Of a DNA stretch of 42,256 nt, positions 27,862 to 37,459 are shown in pieces. Made by a program: the position numbers and the translations under genes. Source of the DNA: Candidatus Zhuqueibacterota bacterium (lineage in GTDB: Bacteria; Zhuqueibacterota; Zhuqueibacteria; Zhuqueibacterales; Zhuqueibacteraceae); the NCBI GenBank assembly GCA_003576975.1, contig QEVD01000031.1:1-42256 (forward strand), given 5' to 3'. Every line of letters starts with the position of its first letter. The first letter of the stretch is position 1. Below the pieces are notes generated by a model that had not been told where the DNA came from, ran no database searches, and worked only from the letters and a program-made list of their open reading frames with translations.

Positions 27862-28314
27862 TCAGTGCGGCAGTTTGCCGAGCGCCTTCCATACCCAACG
27901 ATGAAACCGATGAAACGAAACAACCGGCTGGGCAAACATCAAAATACATTCACCCTGCACTACACGGATGCCGTGTTCTTCGCAAAAACGGATCGCCGCC
28001 TGTGATTCCGCGCCTTGTTGCATCCAGACGCGGCGAATGCCCGCGGCTGCCGCCTCACGCACGACTTTATCCGTTTCCTCCGGAGGCACAACGATTAACA
28101 CGCCTTCAACCGGCTCCGGCAACGCGCTTAAGCTCGGAAAACAAGGTTCTCCTTCGATTTGATCTGCATGCGGATGAACGGGGAACACGCGATAGCCTTT
28201 CGCCTTAAGCGCCTGCAGCGCCATGTTCCCAAATTTTTTGCCGCGCCGCGAGACGCCGACGAGGGCCAGCGTCCGTTGCGCGACGAAATCTTCAACAGCA
28301 GTTTTTGTTGTCAT
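27862..28314 (-). CDS. CoA-binding domain protein (YccU-like)
   Basis: A 150-residue Rossmann-fold protein of the CoA_binding_2 family. Seen: LALVGVSRRGKKFGNMALQALKAKGYRVFPVHPHAD near 16-51, the family's nucleotide-binding strand-loop-helix, then SLSALPEPVEGVLIVVPPEETDKVVREAAAAGIRRVWMQQGAES (about 60-103) and CILMFAQPV near the end. Relatives bind CoA or a nucleotide; their role is poorly known. It is 76 nt downstream of the Lon-like gene and may be the last gene of that transcript. Confidence 0.85.
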   Translation of the reverse strand: MTTKTAVEDFVAQRTLALVGVSRRGKKFGNMALQALKAKGYRVFPVHPHADQIEGEPCFPSLSALPEPVEGVLIVVPPEETDKVVREAAAAGIRRVWMQQGAESQAAIRFCEEHGIRVVQGECILMFAQPVVSFHRFHRWVWKALGKLPH

Positions 28315-28390: not shown

Positions 28391-30805
28391 TCACGTCGCT
28401 AAGGCGTTCTTTTTCTCGCGGCCGAATTCCTTCATACGCTCACCGAATTCGCGCAGGCGTTGCTCGACGCGATGATTGACTGTGCCCTCGGGAAACTTGC
28501 CCTCTGCCCCGCGCACTCCGGCCGGTACACCGGTGAGAATTTCGATCCCTTCTGCGATCGAACGGACCGCCCAAATTGAGAATTTCTTCGCAGCAACGGC
28601 AGCCACCACGTCTTCACGCAGCATTAAATTCGAAACATTGCTCTGCGGAATCATCACGCCTTGTTCGCCACTCAGGCCTTTTGCTTTGCACACATCGAAA
28701 AAGCCTTCGATTTTCTGATTCACGCCGCCGATGGCCTGCACTTCGCCGCGTTGATTCACGGAACCGGTGACCGCAATGCCCTGTTTGATGGGAATACCCG
28801 ATAGCGCGGAAAGCAAGGCATACAATTCGGTCGAAGAAGCGCTATCGCCCTCAACGCCTTCATAACTTTGCTCGAAGACCATACGCGCGGAAAGCGTCAA
28901 CGGCTTGTCCTGCGCAAACTGTTGTGTGAGAAAGCCGCTCAAAATCAATACGCCCTTGCTATGAATCGGCCCGCCCAATTCGACCTCACGCTCGATATCG
29001 AGCACACCGTCGCGCCCCGGGCCCACGCTGGCGGTAATGCGGCTCGGCTTGCCGAAGAAATAATCGCCCAGGCTGATCACCGAAAGCCCGTTCACTTGTC
29101 CAACAGTTTGGCCGGCGGTATCGATCAACAACGTGTCACGCTCGATCATTTCCTGCAAACGTTCTTCAATAAGATTGGAGCGGTAAATTTTGGCGTCGAG
29201 CGCCTTCTGCACATGAACCGCGCTAATGCGCGTGGCGCCTGCTTGCAACGCCCAAAAATTGGCTTCGCGGATGATGTCCGCCAACGCGCCAAAATGCGCA
29301 GACAGCTTTTCTTGATCCTCCGCCAAACGCGCGCTGTACTCCAACACTTTCGCCTTGGCCGTATTGTCAAGATGCTGCAATTTTTCCTTATCACAGAATG
29401 CCGGCAGGAAGGCAAGAATGTCGTGAATATTTTCTTCGCTGCTCGCCATGCGCGTATCAAAGTCCGCCTTCACTTTGAAAAGTTCGGGGAATTCTTCGTC
29501 ATACGCATGCAAGAGATAGTAGAGCAGCGGCCGACCGACCAACACGACTTTGATATTGATGGGAACCGGCCGGGGACGAAGACTTTTCGTGGCCATGTAA
29601 CCCAGGCGCTCGCCGATCTCCTCGATTTCGACCTCGCCGCTGCGCAAAGCGCGCTTCACGCCCTCCCAACTGAGCAGATTGCGCAAAACATCTTCCATCG
29701 GCATCACCAGATAACCGCCGTTAGCGCGATGAAATGAGCCAGGTTTGATCATGGTGAAATCCGTATAGAGCGCGCCAAACTGAACTTCCTTTTCGACACG
29801 GCCAAAAAGATTATTGTAGCTCGGATTGAACTCAACCACCACCGGCGCGCCTTTCTGCTCGCTGTTATCCACCAGCACATTGACTTGGTATTTCCTGAAA
29901 GGCAGTTCGCGCAGCCAGGGCGTCACCACTGCACCACCTTCCGGGGAGGGGTTGGGAGAAGCGCCGGACTTGAAGGTTTCGATATTCTCCAGAATATCTT
30001 TTTGCACCGCGCGCAGATGTGAGATGACTACCGGCAAGTCCTGATACTTTTCATGCAATTCTTCCAAAAGTCCGCCAACAATGTAAAGTGCGACTTGTTG
30101 ATCGAGTGCCTGCAATTTTTCCTGTGCGGCGCGCTCCAAATCGCGAATCTGTTTCATCGTGGTTTTGAGCGCATCTTTCAACGTTTCATGGCGCCGCTGA
30201 AAATCCTCGCGGGTTTGCGCCGGTAAGGCTTGATAATCCGTGTCGCTCAACGGCTGGCCATTCATCATGGGAATCGTCGCCAAGCCGAACGGTGTGGCTT
30301 GCAGCATGAACCCGGCTTCCGTCGCTTGCGCGTTGAGCTTTTCCAGCGCCTGCGCACGTTGCTGATCGAGTGATTTTACGGTGGCATCGCGGCGATTGCT
30401 GTACTCTTCACTCTCAAACGCTTTGGGAATCTCGCGCCGCACATGCGCGATCACATTCTTCATGTCCTGCTGCAGTGCGCGCCCCTGGCCCGGCGGAAGC
30501 TGGCACATTTTGGGCTGATAGGAATCCTCAAAATCGTTGAGATAACACCAATCCGGCGGCGTGTCTTTCCGGCTAGCCAACTCTTCGAGAAAGGATTGCA
30601 CCGCCGTCATCTTGCCGATCCCGGGAGGCCCGGCAACATAGATGTTGAAACCGCTGTTGCGGATTTCCAATCCGAATTGCAAGGCCGATACCGCGCGCTT
30701 TTGCCCGATGATGCTTTCGCGCGCCTTGCGTTGGGCGCCTTTCACGGAATTTAATGTCTTGGGATCAAACGTGCGGCGCAGTTGTTCTGGAGAAAGTTTT
30801 GACAT
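28391..30805 (-). CDS. Lon-related AAA+ protease (LonB/YcbZ-type)
   Basis: An 804-residue ATP-dependent serine protease of the Lon-related S16 group. Seen: a P-loop region GPPGIGKMTAV (59-69) where Met stands in place of Thr/Ser after the invariant Lys; a helical insertion (about 130-260); an AAA core with FHRANGGYLVMPMEDVL; and a C-terminal Lon protease domain with the catalytic dyad Ser655 (GDSASS) and Lys698 (NQKIEGFF). It has no LAN substrate-binding domain as in LonA and no membrane helices. A short Pro/Gly insert (SPNPSPEGGA, about 283-292) looks like a linker. Likely role: degradation of damaged or regulatory proteins in the cytosol. The start is 2 nt after the cupin stop. Confidence 0.88.
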   Translation of the reverse strand: MSKLSPEQLRRTFDPKTLNSVKGAQRKARESIIGQKRAVSALQFGLEIRNSGFNIYVAGPPGIGKMTAVQSFLEELASRKDTPPDWCYLNDFEDSYQPKMCQLPPGQGRALQQDMKNVIAHVRREIPKAFESEEYSNRRDATVKSLDQQRAQALEKLNAQATEAGFMLQATPFGLATIPMMNGQPLSDTDYQALPAQTREDFQRRHETLKDALKTTMKQIRDLERAAQEKLQALDQQVALYIVGGLLEELHEKYQDLPVVISHLRAVQKDILENIETFKSGASPNPSPEGGAVVTPWLRELPFRKYQVNVLVDNSEQKGAPVVVEFNPSYNNLFGRVEKEVQFGALYTDFTMIKPGSFHRANGGYLVMPMEDVLRNLLSWEGVKRALRSGEVEIEEIGERLGYMATKSLRPRPVPINIKVVLVGRPLLYYLLHAYDEEFPELFKVKADFDTRMASSEENIHDILAFLPAFCDKEKLQHLDNTAKAKVLEYSARLAEDQEKLSAHFGALADIIREANFWALQAGATRISAVHVQKALDAKIYRSNLIEERLQEMIERDTLLIDTAGQTVGQVNGLSVISLGDYFFGKPSRITASVGPGRDGVLDIEREVELGGPIHSKGVLILSGFLTQQFAQDKPLTLSARMVFEQSYEGVEGDSASSTELYALLSALSGIPIKQGIAVTGSVNQRGEVQAIGGVNQKIEGFFDVCKAKGLSGEQGVMIPQSNVSNLMLREDVVAAVAAKKFSIWAVRSIAEGIEILTGVPAGVRGAEGKFPEGTVNHRVEQRLREFGERMKEFGREKKNALAT

Positions 30806-30807
30806 GA

Positions 30808-31140
30808 TTACATTGCTTCGCGGATCATTACCAACATCATCTTGAATCTCTTGATTGCCCGCAGTGCGTGCGGTTGCTGCGCGGGCATGATCACCATCTC
30901 GCCTGCTTGCACGCGCAGTTTCTCACCAGCAATGGTCACTTCTGCTTCACCTTCGAGAAGCTGAACCAGGGCGTCATAGGGCGCGGTGTGTTCGCTCAAA
31001 ACCTGGCTCTCGTCAAAAGCGAACAACGTCACGGTTCCGGCTTTGCCGGACATCACGGCCCGGCTCACGACGGCACCCTCTTGATAATCGACGAGCTTAC
31101 TCACGGTGGCAACGTTGGCAATCCGTTTTTCCATGTTCAT
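30808..31140 (-). CDS. Cupin domain protein
   Basis: A 110-residue single-domain cupin. Seen: the first conserved box SEHTAPYDALVQLLEGEAEVTI (about 49-70) and the second box AGEMVIMPAQQPHALRAI (about 80-97). Only some of the usual metal-binding histidines are present (His51, His92), so metal binding is uncertain. Small cupins of this type often bind small ligands or metals and act in redox or stress control. It overlaps the RsbRD gene by ATGA and lies 2 nt before the Lon-like gene, so the three are tightly coupled. Confidence 0.82.
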   Translation of the reverse strand: MNMEKRIANVATVSKLVDYQEGAVVSRAVMSGKAGTVTLFAFDESQVLSEHTAPYDALVQLLEGEAEVTIAGEKLRVQAGEMVIMPAQQPHALRAIKRFKMMLVMIREAM

Positions 31141-31631
31141 CCTTCGGTTCCGGCAAAGAGATCTGGCATGTTCAGTGAAGGCGCGTGAGTGCGGGAGGCA
31201 AGGCCCACATAGGTGCGCGCCAGGTTGTCCTTGCCAGCGCCCAAAACCGTGCTAACCAAGCCCAACGCCTCCGCCAAGTGCGGCGGCTGTATCTCTTTCA
31301 TCAGGCGCATCCACACAGCTTCTTCGAGAACGTTGAACGCGGTTTGCACCTCGCTGAGATCGAATCCCGCAGCAAAGCGTTCGTGGGCAATGATTTTTGC
31401 CTGCGCGCGCATGGGCGTGAGATTGCGCTCACGAATGCAGCGCGTCACCAAATCATAAAGCGCCTGCAATCGCTGTTGCGTTTGCTCATCGCCGATTTTC
31501 TCGTAGTTCTTCAAATGCGCACGCGCCATCGCGTAACGGGCTTCCGCCAGAATTTCACTCGCGTGGTTCTGCAAATACTGCGACATCGTTAAATGCATGT
31601 CTGTCATAAAATGTCGTCCAAAACACAGCAT
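31137..31631 (-). CDS. Stand-alone RsbRD-type N-terminal domain protein
   Basis: A 164-residue helical protein matching the N-terminal domain of RsbRD-type stressosome and sensor proteins: ILAEARYAMARAHLKNYEKIG, LVTRCIRERNLTPMRAQAKIIAHERFAAGFDLSEVQTAFNVLEEAVW (in part), and LGLVSTVLGAGKDNLARTYVGLA. In known proteins this sensory domain is followed by a STAS or kinase domain; here it ends alone, so it probably acts through a partner. The ATG at 31631 overlaps the previous stop (TAATG), which favours coupling; an ATG at 31607 is also possible. Its neighbours suggest a signalling role beside the receiver protein. Confidence 0.75.
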   Translation of the reverse strand: MLCFGRHFMTDMHLTMSQYLQNHASEILAEARYAMARAHLKNYEKIGDEQTQQRLQALYDLVTRCIRERNLTPMRAQAKIIAHERFAAGFDLSEVQTAFNVLEEAVWMRLMKEIQPPHLAEALGLVSTVLGAGKDNLARTYVGLASRTHAPSLNMPDLFAGTEG

Positions 31632-32785
31632 TATCCCAAAAACGTCTCGGCGAATTTCGACCAGGTGCGCTCATCCATTTCTTCGAGCTGGCCTTCGACG
31701 AGCTGCGCGATTTCAGTAATGGTCGAGGGGTGGCCATTGCCGTTTTGCGGGGCGAGCAACTCGCGCATGCGTTTGATTTCCTGTTGATACCATGCCGCGG
31801 CTTTGTCACCGAGGCGCAATTGCTCAATCTCGCTGGCAAGTTGATCCGGTTTGATCGAGCAAATCCAGCCTTTCTCATACGGTTGTTTTTCCAACCAGGT
31901 AAGATTTTCTGCGAGTTCGCTGTTGATCAAATGAATCTTGCCGGTTATCGGAGACTTGAATGCGGCTTTGCGTTCGCCTTGTTTAATATAAAACAGCGGC
32001 TCGCCTTGCTTGACCTGGCGGCCCTTCTCCGGAAATTGAATGGCATCGATGCGCCCGATCATCTTGCGCGCAAAATCATCCACGCCCACGCGCACCAGGC
32101 CGGGGACCGTCACATTGGCCCAGACATGTCCATTGGAAATAAACACGCCGCCCGGTAAAACAAACTCATGCTCATGCGGCCGCTCCGTCGTAATCACGCG
32201 CACCGTGGGCGTGATTTGTTTTTGGATACGATCGTGCCGGCGAATCAGGCATTTTTTGGTGAACTCGACCAGCTCATCTTCGGTGAAGGGCTTTTGCACA
32301 TAATCCATCGCGCCGAATTTCATGGCATCCACCGCGGACTCGATGGTGGCATAACCGGTAATCATCACCACATCGGTTTCCGGGCTGAAGTGTTTCACGC
32401 CCTTCACCACGTCAAGGCCGTCCATTTCCGGCATCTTGAGATCGGTGAACACAAAATCGTACTTGTTCTTTTGCACCAGACCAAGCGCCTCGCGGCCGCT
32501 TTCCACCGTGTCAACGGCGTAGCCGGCCACTACCAAAATCTTGCGGAAGCTGTCCAAAATCACCGGTTCATCATCCACCGCCAGAATGCGCGCCAGCGGA
32601 TTGGGCACGTCCACACGCCTGAGCGATTTTGCCTCGTGCGTGAAATCGAGATTCAAGCCGATATCCAACGCGGCCAGGCGTTCTTTGCGGGCCTTGGCAA
32701 CTTCCATCTTTTTTGTAATCACGCGCACCGCAATGTCAATGATGATGAACGCGACGATCATCGACACGACTAAAATGGCAACCAT
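31631..32785 (-). CDS. Membrane-tethered response regulator fused to a GcvH/lipoyl-type domain
   Basis: A 384-residue fusion. Seen: one N-terminal membrane helix (VAILVVSMIVAFIIIDIAV, 2-20) followed by a basic stretch; a receiver domain (about 65-185) with the acidic pair D71-D72, phosphoacceptor D115 (FTDLKMPEMDG) and Lys165 (YVQKPF); then a glycine-cleavage H-protein-like domain (about 205-330: VWANVTVPGLVRVGVDDFA, LPEKG-like FPEKGRQVKQGEPLF, FKSPITGKIHLIN, PYEKGWICSIKP). The lysine in ERKAAFKSP (K273) aligns with the lipoyl-lysine of GcvH, though the surrounding ESVKAASDIYSP motif is altered. Output is unknown: no DNA-binding or enzymatic domain follows, only a helical tail (335-384). AAAGGAG lies 6 nt before the start. 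The gene is 52 nt downstream of the heme kinase, its likely partner. Confidence 0.85.
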   Translation of the reverse strand: MVAILVVSMIVAFIIIDIAVRVITKKMEVAKARKERLAALDIGLNLDFTHEAKSLRRVDVPNPLARILAVDDEPVILDSFRKILVVAGYAVDTVESGREALGLVQKNKYDFVFTDLKMPEMDGLDVVKGVKHFSPETDVVMITGYATIESAVDAMKFGAMDYVQKPFTEDELVEFTKKCLIRRHDRIQKQITPTVRVITTERPHEHEFVLPGGVFISNGHVWANVTVPGLVRVGVDDFARKMIGRIDAIQFPEKGRQVKQGEPLFYIKQGERKAAFKSPITGKIHLINSELAENLTWLEKQPYEKGWICSIKPDQLASEIEQLRLGDKAAAWYQQEIKRMRELLAPQNGNGHPSTITEIAQLVEGQLEEMDERTWSKFAETFLG

Positions 32786-32837
32786 GAGTGACTCCTTTCT
32801 AAAGGAAAGCGTAAACCGTGAAATGTAATTTTACACA

Positions 32838-34370
32838 TTACGCATTCCGTTTTATGTTTTGCTCTTTGATTTCGTCCACCGGCAGCACGATTTTAAATGT
32901 CGTTCCTTTGCCGGCTTCGCTTTCAACTGAAATTTTGCCATTATGTTTTTCAATAATGCCCCACGTGATCGCAAGGCCAAGGCCATTGCCTTTTTGCCCT
33001 TTCGTGGAGAAAAAGGGTTCGAATATTTTTTCCAGATGCTCGCGCGCAATACCACAGCCGGTGTCGCTCACCTGAATTTGAACGCCCTCCGGCATTCCGG
33101 CCCGGCCATTTTGATGAATTTTTTCGGTGCGCAGCGTGAGCGTGCCGCCCTTCTCAGACATGGCGTCATTGGCATTTAAAAGCAAATTGACAAGCACCTG
33201 CTGCATCTGATCGACATCGACATTGACCGGCGGCAAATCCGGGTCAAGCTGTTCCGCCAGCTTGACACGATTGCGGTTGAATTGATTTTGCAGAATGCGT
33301 ACCGACCGTTTGATAACTTCGTTAATGTCGCTCTTGCGTTTTTCCGGCTGCGACTGGCGCGCAAAATCAAGCAGGCCCTTGACAATCTCGCGGCAGCGCA
33401 TGGTTTCCCGCACGATCACTTCCAGATCGTCTTTCATCTCGGGCTGGCTGTCGGCGCGCTTGAGCAAATAACTGCTGTAAGTCAGCACGCCGGTGAGCGG
33501 ATTGTTGATTTCATGCGCCACGCCCGCGGCCAATCGCCCCACCGAAGCGAGTTTGTCGGATTGGTAAAGCTGGCGCTGTGTTTCGGAGAGCTTGCGCGTC
33601 ATCGCGTTGAATGATTTCGCCAATGCGCCGATCTCGTCATGCTTGTCCAGCGTGATGGTATAATTCAAATCGCCTTCGGCAACGCGTTGGGTGGCGGCGA
33701 CGATCTGGCTCACCGGTTTGAGCACAATGCGGTTCACCAGCAGATAGATGATGAAACTCACCGCGGCAATCGCAATAATCGCAAACGTCAGCAAGCGCAT
33801 GCGGCTGGCCTGCAGGCCGCGCTCGACTTCATCGAGCGACATCGTGATATCCAAAACCCCCAGCACCTTTTGCAGTTCGCCGTGCGCATGGCAATCCGCC
33901 TGCCAGCAACTCGGTTCGTTGTAAATCGGGTTGATGATGCCCAGGGTTTGCTTGTTGCCGGCCGATTGAAAGATGCGCGTGCGTTCGGAGACCGGCACGC
34001 GTTCGAGCGGTTGATCCGCAGCATGGCAGGCATAACAGGCTTCCGCTTTTTTATCCAGCATCTTGCCGGCATCGAGCGAATCAGTCGAGAAAATGATCAC
34101 GCCTTCTTTGTTGAAGATGCGAACCTTCTCGATGCCCTCCTGCCGGCCGATGGTATTGATAATGCGATGCACCGATTCGCGCTGATTCAACAGCATGTCG
34201 TATTTCGTGCTGCTCTTGACCGTCTCGCTCAATTGATGCGCATTGCGCTCCAGCTCGGCAATGAGCTGGCGCTGATGCGCGTTGAGAATGAGATAGGCGA
34301 AAATGCCGATGATGACCAACGCCGCGCTGCCGACGATGAAGATGAGTTTATAACTGATTTTGGAACGCAT
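32838..34370 (-). CDS. Membrane sensor histidine kinase with periplasmic heme c-type motifs
   Basis: A 510-residue kinase. Order of parts: TM1 (about 8-30), a periplasmic region of about 160 residues, TM2 (about 192-213), HAMP (about 210-262), dimerisation domain with phosphoacceptor His286 (AAGVAHEINNPL), and an ATPase domain with N box (LLNANDAM), G1 (DTGCGIA), F (FEPFFSTKG) and G2 (GNGLGLAIT) boxes. The periplasmic part holds CYACH (112-116), a classic heme c site, and CWQADCH (155-161), a CX4CH variant. Covalent heme suggests sensing of redox state, oxygen, NO or a related gas. ATG 34370 is chosen because the basic N-terminus and TM1 start there; ATG 34406 would overlap the upstream gene. 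It sits between the Cys-rich protein and the receiver-lipoyl protein. Confidence 0.88.
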   Translation of the reverse strand: MRSKISYKLIFIVGSAALVIIGIFAYLILNAHQRQLIAELERNAHQLSETVKSSTKYDMLLNQRESVHRIINTIGRQEGIEKVRIFNKEGVIIFSTDSLDAGKMLDKKAEACYACHAADQPLERVPVSERTRIFQSAGNKQTLGIINPIYNEPSCWQADCHAHGELQKVLGVLDITMSLDEVERGLQASRMRLLTFAIIAIAAVSFIIYLLVNRIVLKPVSQIVAATQRVAEGDLNYTITLDKHDEIGALAKSFNAMTRKLSETQRQLYQSDKLASVGRLAAGVAHEINNPLTGVLTYSSYLLKRADSQPEMKDDLEVIVRETMRCREIVKGLLDFARQSQPEKRKSDINEVIKRSVRILQNQFNRNRVKLAEQLDPDLPPVNVDVDQMQQVLVNLLLNANDAMSEKGGTLTLRTEKIHQNGRAGMPEGVQIQVSDTGCGIAREHLEKIFEPFFSTKGQKGNGLGLAITWGIIEKHNGKISVESEAGKGTTFKIVLPVDEIKEQNIKRNA

Positions 34371-34383
34371 GGCCACATCCCGC

Positions 34384-34755
34384 TTAAGGAATTCCAGCAG
34401 TTTCATTCTGCGCTTGCAATTGCGTGCGCATGCCCTCAATCGCGTCGATCACCAGCATGAAATAGCGATCCAGCGCGCAATCGGCCTGCAGGCGCAACAC
34501 ACAAACGCCGCCTTCTGAACTTGCGCAAAACGCGCAGACTTTTTCACGCAACACACGAACATAGTCTTCCATCAGCCAACTGTCGACGGATTCCACGGTA
34601 GCGATCACCTGTGGCAGGTAAATATCGATCGGGCATTTACGGCTTGCCGGCAACCCGCAGCGCACAAAACGATCGCCGTGCATGACGGCATCGAGGCACA
34701 CCGGACACACGCGACTGCGAATGGCTTCAGCATATTCTTGCAGATATTCGGCCAT
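34384..34755 (-). CDS. Duplicated four-cysteine module protein
   Basis: A 123-residue soluble protein, family not recognised. It consists of two copies of one pattern: VCPVC-x12-C-x7-CPIDIYLPQVIATVE (about 16-56) and VCAFC-x7-C-x7-CALDRYFMLVIDAIE (about 73-108). Each unit has four cysteines and a shared helix-like tail C-[PA]-[IL]-D-x-Y. Eight cysteines arranged as two CxxC...C...C sets could bind two iron-sulfur clusters or two zinc ions. It has no signal peptide or helix, so it is cytosolic. It is directly upstream of the heme kinase (13-nt gap), so it may be a redox partner or cytosolic sensor of that system. Confidence 0.65.
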   Translation of the reverse strand: MAEYLQEYAEAIRSRVCPVCLDAVMHGDRFVRCGLPASRKCPIDIYLPQVIATVESVDSWLMEDYVRVLREKVCAFCASSEGGVCVLRLQADCALDRYFMLVIDAIEGMRTQLQAQNETAGIP

Positions 34756-34871
34756 GACTCACCTCATCAGTTCTATACATGCAAAACGGATAAAACGTCC
34801 GGGCGGCTATCCTTCGGGTTGCAAACGCTCGATTGGTACACTGTTACCTTGATAGATTTATCCCACCCGGT

Positions 34872-34987
34872 ATGTCATCCAGAAGGGAACTTGTGATGTT
34901 GCCGGCATAACGCCGAGTACGTCACAAGATTCGTCTGAATGACATTTCGAGAGGCCCTCATACAAATTAAAGTAACAGAGCACTAGT
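34872..34987. repeat. Palindromic dispersed element, copy 1
   Basis: An intergenic element of about 116 bp. Outer arms 34872-34899 and 34919-34945 are near-perfect inverted repeats (ATGTCATCCAGAAGG... against ATGTCATTCAGACGA...), with a GC-rich centre, followed by a tail ending in CACTAGT. Copy 2 at 41311-41427 has the same length, arms and tail. It lies between the ferredoxin gene and the Cys-rich gene and would fold into a hairpin in a minus-strand transcript. Confidence 0.75.
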
Positions 34988-35032
34988 ATGAGCCATTCGC
35001 CTCCGCCCGGACGAGGTACTTGCGAACCGTCA

Positions 35033-35413
<381 letters not shown>

Positions 35414-35509
35414 TTACTATTCTTGATCTGCTGAGGCCTGACGGCGGCAAGCTCATCTAAAAAACTTTCAATACCAGCCGCGGTCAAACCAGATGAAAGA
35501 TTTTCATCA

Positions 35510-36673
35510 TTATTCCGCCCACAACACATGCGGACTATCCTCAACCACTTTGATTTTTTCTTCTGTTTCGGGAAACACCGGCAGATAGCGCGCGGCCACG
35601 GCAAAACCCGCAATGCCCAGTGCGACAATCATCGTGGTAACGGCAATCTCCATCCACGAGGGGAAATAACCTGCCTGCGCCCAGCCTTCCATGCCGGTGA
35701 TGCTGACATTCATGCGATTCAAAATAAATCCCAAAACCACTAACAGCGCCGTAACGAACAGGCCGGTTTGATGCAAGCGCACTCTCGGCAGCATGAGCAG
35801 AATCATGGGCAACAATACGCCCAAACCCATCTCAGCCCAATACAACGCTGATTCTATACCCGGCGTGAACACAAATGACCAGGCATTACGATCGGCTAAA
35901 TCCTGCACTTTCATTACGGTGTAAATCATCAAAATCACCACCATCACCCGGCCAAGCTGTGAAAGTATCGGCATCTCAATTTCACGCTTGAAGGCGCGGC
36001 TGCTCAGGAACGATTCGAAGATGACCATGGCGCAACCCACGCCGATGGCCGACACAAAAAAGAACACGGGCAGCAGTGAGGAATACCACAGCGGATGCAG
36101 CTTTTCCGGCACGATCAAATACAACGAACCGAGCGAGGATTGATGCAGCGTCGACAACAGCACGCCGATAATCACCAGCGGGATGGTAATGGTGCGCACG
36201 ATGCGCAGCGGTTTTTCCCAACCCAGTTTTTCGAACAACACCGGACTGAACTCCAGCGCCAGCACGGTGGTGTATAGCATCACGCACCAGGCTACTTCGA
36301 ACATCACCGAACTCGGATTCCACATGACAATGGCGTGCCAGATGCGATCAGGCCGGCCCAGGTCGAACAGCAAAGCGAAAATCACGAGCAAGTAGCCCAG
36401 AAACGCCGTCAACACCGCCGGGCGAATGATGGGCTTGAACGTTTTGATGTTGAAAATGTAAACGATGGCGCACAGCGTAAAACCGCCGGCCGCCAAACCG
36501 ACACCGCAGAGGATGTCGAAACCGATCCACAATCCCCAGGGGAATTGATCGGTGAGATTTGTCGCCGCGCCCAGGCCTTGCGTGAAGCGCACGAAGGTGG
36601 CATAAAGGCCGAGCGCCAGCAGGATCACCAGCACCGCGCGCCAAAATGTGATGTGTGCCAAAAACTTTTTCAT
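35510..36673 (-). CDS. NrfD / HybB-like integral membrane subunit
   Basis: A 387-residue membrane protein with nine or ten helices of the NrfD/PsrC/HybB family, which passes electrons between iron-sulfur partners and the quinone pool. Seen: TM1 FWRAVLVILLALGLYATFVRF, then the conserved LTDQFPWGLWIGFDILCGVGLAAGGF (about 40-65), LFDLGRPDRIWHAIVMWNPSSVMFEVAW (about 102-129) and HQSSLGSLYLIVPEKLHPLWYSSLLP (about 177-202), typical of HybB. No hydrogenase, molybdoenzyme or multiheme cytochrome gene is present. It is 15 nt downstream of the HybA-like gene, giving a two-subunit module. Confidence 0.9.
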   Translation of the reverse strand: MKKFLAHITFWRAVLVILLALGLYATFVRFTQGLGAATNLTDQFPWGLWIGFDILCGVGLAAGGFTLCAIVYIFNIKTFKPIIRPAVLTAFLGYLLVIFALLFDLGRPDRIWHAIVMWNPSSVMFEVAWCVMLYTTVLALEFSPVLFEKLGWEKPLRIVRTITIPLVIIGVLLSTLHQSSLGSLYLIVPEKLHPLWYSSLLPVFFFVSAIGVGCAMVIFESFLSSRAFKREIEMPILSQLGRVMVVILMIYTVMKVQDLADRNAWSFVFTPGIESALYWAEMGLGVLLPMILLMLPRVRLHQTGLFVTALLVVLGFILNRMNVSITGMEGWAQAGYFPSWMEIAVTTMIVALGIAGFAVAARYLPVFPETEEKIKVVEDSPHVLWAE

Positions 36674-36688
36674 AAACGCAACCTTTGC

Positions 36689-37459
36689 TTAGTGAGGTTG
36701 ATGATCATCTCGTTCTTCCATTTCTTTCAACTTCGCATGCAGCCGGCCGACTTCGTCACGGCGATTGATAATCCACCATAAACCGTAAAGCGCAGTGCCG
36801 CCCACGGCCACGATGTTCGGAATTTTCGACAACGCATTCCAGGTCAGCATGGGCAGCGGCTTATCGGGCAAATTGTTGGGGAAACCGAGCTTTTCGAAGG
36901 GCACGGCCGACAGGAAAAACACTGAAGTGCCGCCCGCTTCATTCAGGCCGTAAATGTGATTGACATACTTTTCGGGTTCGTCCCGCAAGCGTTTTTGCGC
37001 TTCGGCGATCAGTTCGTCGCGGTCGCCGAAAATCGTTGCGCCCGTCGGGCAGATTTCCGCGCAGGCCGTTTGCAGGCCTTGCGCCAAGCGTTCATGGCAA
37101 AAAATGCACTTGCGCACGCGCGGCGCGACCTGGTTCCAGGTGTAGGTCGGCACTTGAAACGGGCAGGCTTGCATGCAGTAACGGCAGCCGATGCACTTGC
37201 TTTCGTCGTACAGCACCGGCCCAAATTCGGTGGTAAATGCGCCAACCGGACACACCGAGGCGCACGTGGGTTCCTCGCAGTGCATGCACAAACGCCGCAC
37301 ATACGTGTCATTGCCATAATCTTGCACCACGGTATAGGCATTGGCGTTCAGCTTCACTTCTTCGCCTTCGGGCAGGCCGTTTTGCTCTTTGCAGGCATCG
37401 CGGCACAAACCGCAACCAACACAGAGTGTAATATCAATCAGCATCGCTTTGCGCGCCAT
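36689..37459 (-). CDS. HybA-like four-[4Fe-4S] membrane-anchored ferredoxin subunit
   Basis: A 256-residue iron-sulfur subunit. Sixteen cysteines form four clusters: C13-C16-C19-C23, C58-C61-C66-C70, C89-C92-C95-C99 and C118-C121-C133-C137. A single C-terminal helix (about 213-232, IPNIVAVGGTALYGLWWII) anchors it. Unlike HybA and HmcB, the protein starts MARKAMLIDI with no Sec or Tat signal, so the iron-sulfur part should face the cytoplasm. Together with the HybB-like subunit it would exchange electrons between a cytosolic partner, perhaps the ferredoxin gene downstream, and quinones. The start at 37459 has AAAGGAG 7 nt upstream, and an upstream in-frame ATG at 37564 is rejected. Confidence 0.88.
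   Translation of the reverse strand: MARKAMLIDITLCVGCGLCRDACKEQNGLPEGEEVKLNANAYTVVQDYGNDTYVRRLCMHCEEPTCASVCPVGAFTTEFGPVLYDESKCIGCRYCMQACPFQVPTYTWNQVAPRVRKCIFCHERLAQGLQTACAEICPTGATIFGDRDELIAEAQKRLRDEPEKYVNHIYGLNEAGGTSVFFLSAVPFEKLGFPNNLPDKPLPMLTWNALSKIPNIVAVGGTALYGLWWIINRRDEVGRLHAKLKEMEERDDHQPH

Follow-up and report, generated by a model that had tools for sequence, protein, structure and literature searches.

Gene content of the locus

The window, the whole stretch of DNA analyzed here, is 42,256 nucleotides (nt) long and makes up all of contig QEVD01000031.1 (G000:C234) in a metagenome-type assembly of a Candidatus Zhuqueibacterota bacterium (GCA_003576975.1; 7.25 Mb, 776 contigs). Its close relatives in the genome_contigs collection are labeled candidate division KSB1. 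The minus strand carries genes for a pair of redox subunits related to HmcB and HmcC, a sensor histidine kinase with two heme motifs, and a membrane-tethered receiver fused to a GcvH-like domain, and these form a core that is conserved across genomes; the remaining genes at the locus are local. A preliminary description of the window, made from its sequence, had named these genes as a redox module with its own sensing chain, and all of the genes it named were found where it placed them, all on the minus strand. They are listed below in the order of transcription, ending with the next gene in line (Tat, twin-arginine translocation; CoA, coenzyme A).

36689..37459, minus strand: HmcB/HybA-like four-cluster iron-sulfur subunit with a C-terminal hydrophobic anchor and no Tat signal; starts MARK, with a ribosome site before the ATG; HmcB 241 bits (cut-off 420)
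35510..36673, minus strand: HmcC/NrfD integral membrane quinone-type subunit without a heme tail; HmcC 360 bits (cut-off 550)
35033..35380, minus strand: two-cluster ferredoxin of the YfhL type, a family-specific addition; NCBIfam 100.2 bits (cut-off 86, passed)
34384..34755, minus strand: duplicated four-Cys protein, a family-specific addition found elsewhere beside citrate synthase; no family over cut-off
32838..34370, minus strand: sensor histidine kinase with a Cache-like outer domain (CX2CH and CX4CH heme motifs), HAMP, HisKA, and HATPase
31631..32785, minus strand: membrane-tethered response regulator with an N-terminal helix, a receiver (key residues present), and a GcvH-like domain without the lipoyl lysine
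31137..31631, minus strand: RsbRD_N/HisK_N-like helical protein, a local addition; 19.7 bits, below the Pfam cut-off of 24.3
30808..31140, minus strand: cupin, a local addition
28391..30805, minus strand: LonB/LonC-like AAA protease, a local addition
27862..28314, minus strand: CoA-binding protein, membership unsure

From HmcB to the receiver fusion, the successive gaps are 15, 129, 277, 13, and 52 nt, with the 277-nt gap lying between the ferredoxin and the duplicated-Cys gene. The spacing is −1 nt between the receiver fusion and the RsbRD_N-like gene, −4 nt between that gene and the cupin, 2 nt between the cupin and the protease, and 76 nt between the protease and the CoA-binding gene. The best start of the kinase is at 34370 and not at the open-reading-frame start, 34439.

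Linkage of the core genes across genomes

An alignment of 15 fusion proteins (A1), free of kinase and HmcBC sequence, was used as the query for a scan of genome_contigs that confirmed 287 relatives, the best 80 of which (79 loci) were taken as the sample. Wherever the contig extends 7 kb or more in both directions from the fusion gene (32 loci), the kinase, HmcB, and HmcC are all present (32 of 32). Among all 79 loci, the kinase was present in 64, HmcB in 55, HmcC in 56, and all three in 53, and each of the other 26 loci has less than 7 kb on at least one side of the fusion. The complete loci are labeled in their database records as KSB1, Acidobacteria, Ignavibacteria/Bacteroidetes/Chlorobiota, Gemmatimonadetes, Proteobacteria, Spirochaetia, Elusimicrobia, and Calditrichia. 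This result bears out the earlier proposal of a quinone-type redox pair accompanied by its own sensing chain, and the travel of the pair across several phyla together with a heme kinase and a tethered response protein suggests a respiratory part that is tuned by sensing outside the membrane.

A second set of 82 genomes of the phylum, which shares eight identical contigs with the first sample, was searched with the sensor half of the kinase, the GcvH half of the fusion, the duplicated-Cys protein, and the NrfD family as queries. Matches were found in 36, 77, 11, and 57 genomes, respectively, the number for the GcvH half being high because true GcvH proteins match it as well. An NrfD gene lies within 12 kb on the same contig for 33 of the 50 kinase matches, where about 0.65 would be expected from random placement; a GcvH-like gene lies within the same distance for 30 (0.35 expected), and 28 have both nearby.

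The other genes of the window behave differently, as the 79 loci hold the ferredoxin twice, the RsbRD-like gene twice, the Lon gene four times, and the cupin not at all. Their earlier inclusion in the module was thus not borne out. The duplicated-Cys gene, which the preliminary description had grouped with the kinase and the fusion as unusual genes that would be found together beside NrfD modules, was found in every genome of the window's family (eight of eight) but among the 79 loci in no more than three, each of them from that family. In three other genomes of the phylum it adjoins citrate synthase, and neither the kinase nor the fusion nor HmcBC gave a match in its vicinity. Because it is confined to the family in the sample and adjoins citrate synthase without the module elsewhere, we rejected it as a core member; the kinase and the fusion, by contrast, clearly stay together with HmcBC.

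The citrate synthase-side copies lie at L021:8440-8775, L022:9265-9983 (two tandem copies), and L023:9074-9397, the last also near 2-oxoacid:ferredoxin oxidoreductase and Hdr-like genes. The product may be a small metalloprotein serving a ferredoxin-type citric acid cycle. Its structure model is of low confidence (mean predicted local distance difference test score, pLDDT, 65.4) and retrieved no solved structure under E 1. Kinship with the Cys-rich N-terminus of certain GcvH proteins, those of the type II modules described below, found no support (hhalign probability 0.3%).

The heme kinase and the receiver-GcvH fusion

Both a CX2CH and a CX4CH motif were found within the first 320 residues of 98 of the 98 kinase frames that reach the sensor part (90 distinct), a count that leaves out six frames without that part. 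In 22 of 22 aligned sensors, C114, C117, H118, C157, C162, and H163 are invariant, as is a second His after CX4CH. Pfam searches of these sensors matched HAMP in all 22, a class-40H sensor in 12 (a weak match, best 7.3e-06), and sCache_4 in six. Given these matches and the invariant heme motifs, the outer domain is Cache-like and would be expected to bind two c-type hemes. In Ignavibacteria-type loci, heme kinases such as L181:6259-8130 carry an insertion of about 125 residues, bearing two CXXC pairs, inside the ATPase domain.

The sCache_heme sensors (DUF3365/Tll0287), as presented in the accessible part of a 2026 preprint (PMC12889525), share a Cache-like outer domain, a covalent c-type heme motif, and fusion to kinases with the proteins described here, but have one heme motif where these have two. 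In that account, c-type heme Cache domains fused to signaling modules behave as sensors of nitric oxide (NO). This precedent, together with the weak class-40H matches, would favor a kinase that is chiefly a sensor of NO or another ligand and not a redox gauge, with the module serving as a switch for anaerobic respiration. We consider this rather unlikely, as the family of the preprint, PF11845 (sCache_heme), matched none of the 22 sensors at E 0.01 and the number of heme motifs also sets the two groups apart.

In the fusion, the receiver residues D71, D72, D115, T143, and K165 are invariant in 15 of 15 proteins, so that the acidic pair, the phospho-accepting Asp, the Thr, and the Lys are intact. 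The C-terminal part of the window protein matches GCV_H with 72.1 bits, and in a structure model of the fusion (mean pLDDT 71.2) this part mostly scores 80-95, a confidently modeled barrel. These two results are what could be said for the lipoyl signaling output of the preliminary description, in which the fusion would carry lipoate and swing it as a phospho-controlled redox output. The label is correct for the fold, but the lysine that would be modified is absent. An alignment with solved GcvH places a Glu of the window protein at the lipoyl lysine, and a lysine stands at this column, in the same register, in only six of 137 module domains (127 distinct), compared with 10 of 10 true GcvH proteins of the phylum. 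With the 15-protein alignment, the solved GcvH, and the domain count all in agreement, a lipoyl output was rejected and is very improbable. The fusion differs in this respect from GcvH and the LbpA lipoate-binding proteins, which belong to the same fold family and in which, according to the accessible text of PMC6067878, the lipoate lysine is strictly conserved; it differs also in its attachment to a receiver and a membrane helix. Most loci (e.g., L019:1626-2399), including most of the Ignavibacteria type, encode a further receiver-GcvH protein, a soluble one, between the kinase and the fusion; it is missing from the window.

A second type of module, here called type II, was found in other KSB1 families and consists of a heme kinase, a receiver-sigma54-Fis regulator, and a peptidase of family M54 (archaemetzincin); in several such loci, HmcBC is also accompanied by a Cys-rich GcvH protein and by free-standing GcvH-like membrane proteins. 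The window's own genome holds one, with a second kinase beside a receiver-sigma54-Fis regulator (G000:C315). Further examples are L090:9759-14189, L093, L095, L100, and L102, and the presence of the archaemetzincin in these modules is unexplained. The output of type II is transcription, whereas in the window's type (type I) the receiver is fused directly to the GcvH-like part. It could be argued from type II, with its separate GcvH-like proteins, and from the second kinase of this genome that the receiver-GcvH protein acts as a scaffold or as a sink for phosphate, the real output being transcription through another regulator; a PAS-sigma54 regulator 6.8 kb downstream of the fusion in Stygiobacter would fit as well. 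However, no sigma-54 receiver gene was seen adjoining the window's kinase, and the receivers next to the kinase in type I loci end in GcvH-like domains, which makes such a transcriptional output unlikely.

The HmcB/HmcC pair, its electron partner, and a proposed mechanism

The best NCBIfam matches of the redox pair are HmcB and HmcC, both below the equivalog cut-offs, and the profile match of the window HmcB begins at position 40 of HybA. Counting overlapping contigs, the HmcB frames fall into two kinds, 57 of them Tat-type and 27 Tat-less. Two rows were reassigned by eye, L019 to the Tat-less kind because its RR sits in a spurious upstream extension and L109 to the Tat-type because a merged frame had concealed its signal. 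A multiheme partner accompanies 48 of the 57 Tat-type proteins: in 46, a separate frame with at least six CXXCH lies within 3 kb of HmcC, and in two, HmcC itself runs into 14 CXXCH. The other nine, one of them cut off, have neither arrangement. HmcC is truncated in three of the 27 Tat-less cases. In 13 of the remaining 24 it carries exactly three CXXCH after an additional hydrophobic stretch, a tail that in L090 is a cytochrome c7 domain, and in 11 it lacks a heme tail. Eight of these 11 are the window's family, in which neither a multiheme cytochrome nor a triheme HmcC tail was found near the pair (eight rows). In most other lineages the redox partner is a multiheme cytochrome or the triheme tail. 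The Tat-less class also raises the question of whether HybA-type subunits of this kind work inside or outside the membrane.

No catalytic subunit of a hydrogenase or reductase was seen among the window's genes, in agreement with the preliminary description, which had left the electron partner open; the ferredoxin encoded at the locus is a possible one. The pair of the window most likely links cytoplasmic ferredoxin and menaquinone, a reading in which our confidence falls slightly short of even and which is suggested by the missing heme partner, an HmcB without export signal, and the gain of a ferredoxin at the locus. The neighborhood in the family is ferredoxin-rich, which fits such a partner. 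A 2-oxoacid:ferredoxin oxidoreductase lies inside the module in G079 and G081 (only these two), malic enzyme lies upstream of it in G076, G077, and G081, and G077 has, further upstream, a NiFe hydrogenase, an ADP-forming acyl-CoA synthetase type protein, another 2-oxoacid oxidoreductase, and alanine dehydrogenase. We count this ferredoxin-reducing island (2-oxoacid:ferredoxin oxidoreductase, NiFe hydrogenase, malic enzyme) in favor of the ferredoxin-menaquinone reading. Genes of the fumarate reductase/succinate dehydrogenase type follow the module in G079, G080, and G081 (FrdA by eye). Two candidate partners were rejected: the 2-oxoacid:ferredoxin oxidoreductase as a fixed partner, given its restriction to two modules, and an [FeFe] hydrogenase hidden elsewhere, as none was found in eight of the eight genomes of the family.

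Alternatively, HmcB may be external to the membrane even in the window's family, having been exported along with a Tat-signal partner whose gene lies elsewhere, and the pair would then be a quinol oxidase or reductase with a periplasmic partner, as in Hmc and HybAB. The C-terminal anchor and the positive residues that follow it are alike in both HmcB classes, the triheme tail paired with 13 of the 24 Tat-less proteins must be outside the membrane, and the accessible text of PMC10924467 offers a precedent in a signal-less HybA-type protein next to a Tat-signal [FeFe] hydrogenase, with which it is thought to be exported. On the other hand, the window's genes include no Tat-signal partner, the family lacks a heme partner gene close to the pair, and the [FeFe] hydrogenase of the precedent is absent from the family genomes. 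We regard an exported HmcB as plausible but somewhat doubtful.

The pairing of HmcBC with the signaling genes was also compared in trees. In the fusion tree (27 proteins), the window's family groups with three loci labeled Acidobacteria or 'bacterium' (100/100). Two of these three loci were usable in the HmcC tree (24 proteins, with a long-branch warning), and there both join the Tat-type clade (100/100). The window's family stands apart from them; its nearest neighbors are Tat-less rows of KSB1 and Gemmatimonadetes, with which it shares no supported clade. One signaling type thus occurs with two kinds of HmcBC, a point in favor of a functional tie between them.

In the mechanism that we propose, HmcB (iron-sulfur) and HmcC (NrfD) would link the quinone pool to a redox partner by electron transfer, as expected from their families, with the pair of the window's family exchanging electrons between cytoplasmic ferredoxin and menaquinone. 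The two-heme Cache-like domain outside the membrane would sense either the redox state or a ligand of the heme, for example NO, and the kinase would phosphorylate the receiver, a pairing suggested by their constant neighborhood. Because the receiver has a membrane tether, no DNA-binding domain, and a GcvH-like barrel unable to carry lipoate, its output would most likely be protein contact at the membrane with HmcBC or its partner. We hold with about even confidence that the locus is a conserved, self-regulated, quinone-linked electron-transfer module in which the heme kinase acts on the complex through a membrane-bound, non-lipoylatable receiver. A more specific form of this proposal is tentative and, in our estimate, fairly unlikely: the lipoate-free H-protein barrel on the phosphorylated, tethered receiver would dock on HmcBC and gate electron flow, a two-component output involving neither DNA binding nor enzyme activity, and in the window's lineage the same controller would have moved onto a Tat-less, ferredoxin-linked HmcBC.

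Several observations weigh against the proposed mechanism and its ferredoxin partner. The genome_contigs sample leans to close relatives, since the best relatives were taken, and 17 of the 50 kinase matches in the phylum set have no NrfD gene within 12 kb on their own contig, several of these contigs being short and contig ends one cause. The 277-nt gap may divide the locus into two transcripts; a promoter and terminator scan, which yields no more sites than shuffles do, gave no minus-strand terminator-like site there. The positive residues (NRR) after the HmcB anchor would put the tail inside and the clusters outside, contrary to a cytoplasmic HmcB, and the signal-less precedent above points the same way. 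NiFe hydrogenase-type matches occur in seven of the eight family genomes, mostly partial, and the large-subunit match is full-length in three of the eight (only the large subunit being considered). For the 2-oxoacid oxidoreductase of the G079 and G081 modules, the window's genus has only 37-39% relatives.

The subunit families are known, and no description of this gene combination was found in the literature searched, which left out most subscription papers; likewise, no paper was found for 'GcvH' with 'NrfD' or for 'GcvH domain' with 'response regulator'. The Hmc complex of Desulfovibrio (HmcABCDEF with rrf1/rrf2) is similar in its HmcB and HmcC, in the receiver-type regulator near its redox pair (gene order from the accessible part of PMC10924467), and in the multiheme partner seen in most relatives of the window's pair. 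It differs in that the multiheme HmcA, the cytochrome b HmcE, and the cytoplasmic HmcF are not among the window's neighboring genes, where the search for them was made, and in that the heme kinase and tethered receiver-GcvH protein stand in place of Rrf1/Rrf2, the scores being under the equivalog cut-offs. HybA and HybB of Escherichia coli hydrogenase-2 belong to the same two subunit families, but the window's locus has no hydrogenase genes and its HmcB no Tat signal. The modules of a tail-anchored iron-sulfur protein, a HybB-like quinol oxidase, and a c-type cytochrome in PMC10924467 have the layout of the Tat-type relatives, and a signal-less version is also known there; the available text reports no constant flanking genes and no kinase or receiver partners for them, and the signal-less version stands beside an [FeFe] hydrogenase. 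If the linkage means what it seems to, the module offers a testable example of respiration being controlled at the complex, through phosphorylation and not through gene expression, and a new role for a degenerate lipoyl-type domain.

It could also provide a sensor/actuator pair for research on extracellular electron transfer in a named isolate, Stygiobacter electus (L181). Downstream of its module lie genes for a 16-CXXCH protein that includes a cytochrome b561 domain and for a 14-CXXCH protein, surroundings that resemble an extracellular electron transfer setting; a beta-barrel-like neighbor gave no Pfam match. The accessible text of two papers on Melioribacter and extracellular electron transfer (PMC5492636, PMC6295460) does not mention the module.

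Near the core, a SIMPL (DUF541) protein is encoded on the plus strand upstream of HmcB (window:37843-38595), where relatives have malic enzyme. In a genome of the same species (G075), about 5.5 kb with four secreted-type genes, including a subtilase with a sorting tail and a BNR-repeat protein, separates HmcB from HmcC (L014:1308-6773), compared with 15 nt in the window, reflecting an insertion or a misassembly. An efflux gene of the RND (resistance-nodulation-division) type lies at window:22814-26305, and its last ~60 residues look unlike the family, perhaps through a frame error or a fusion.

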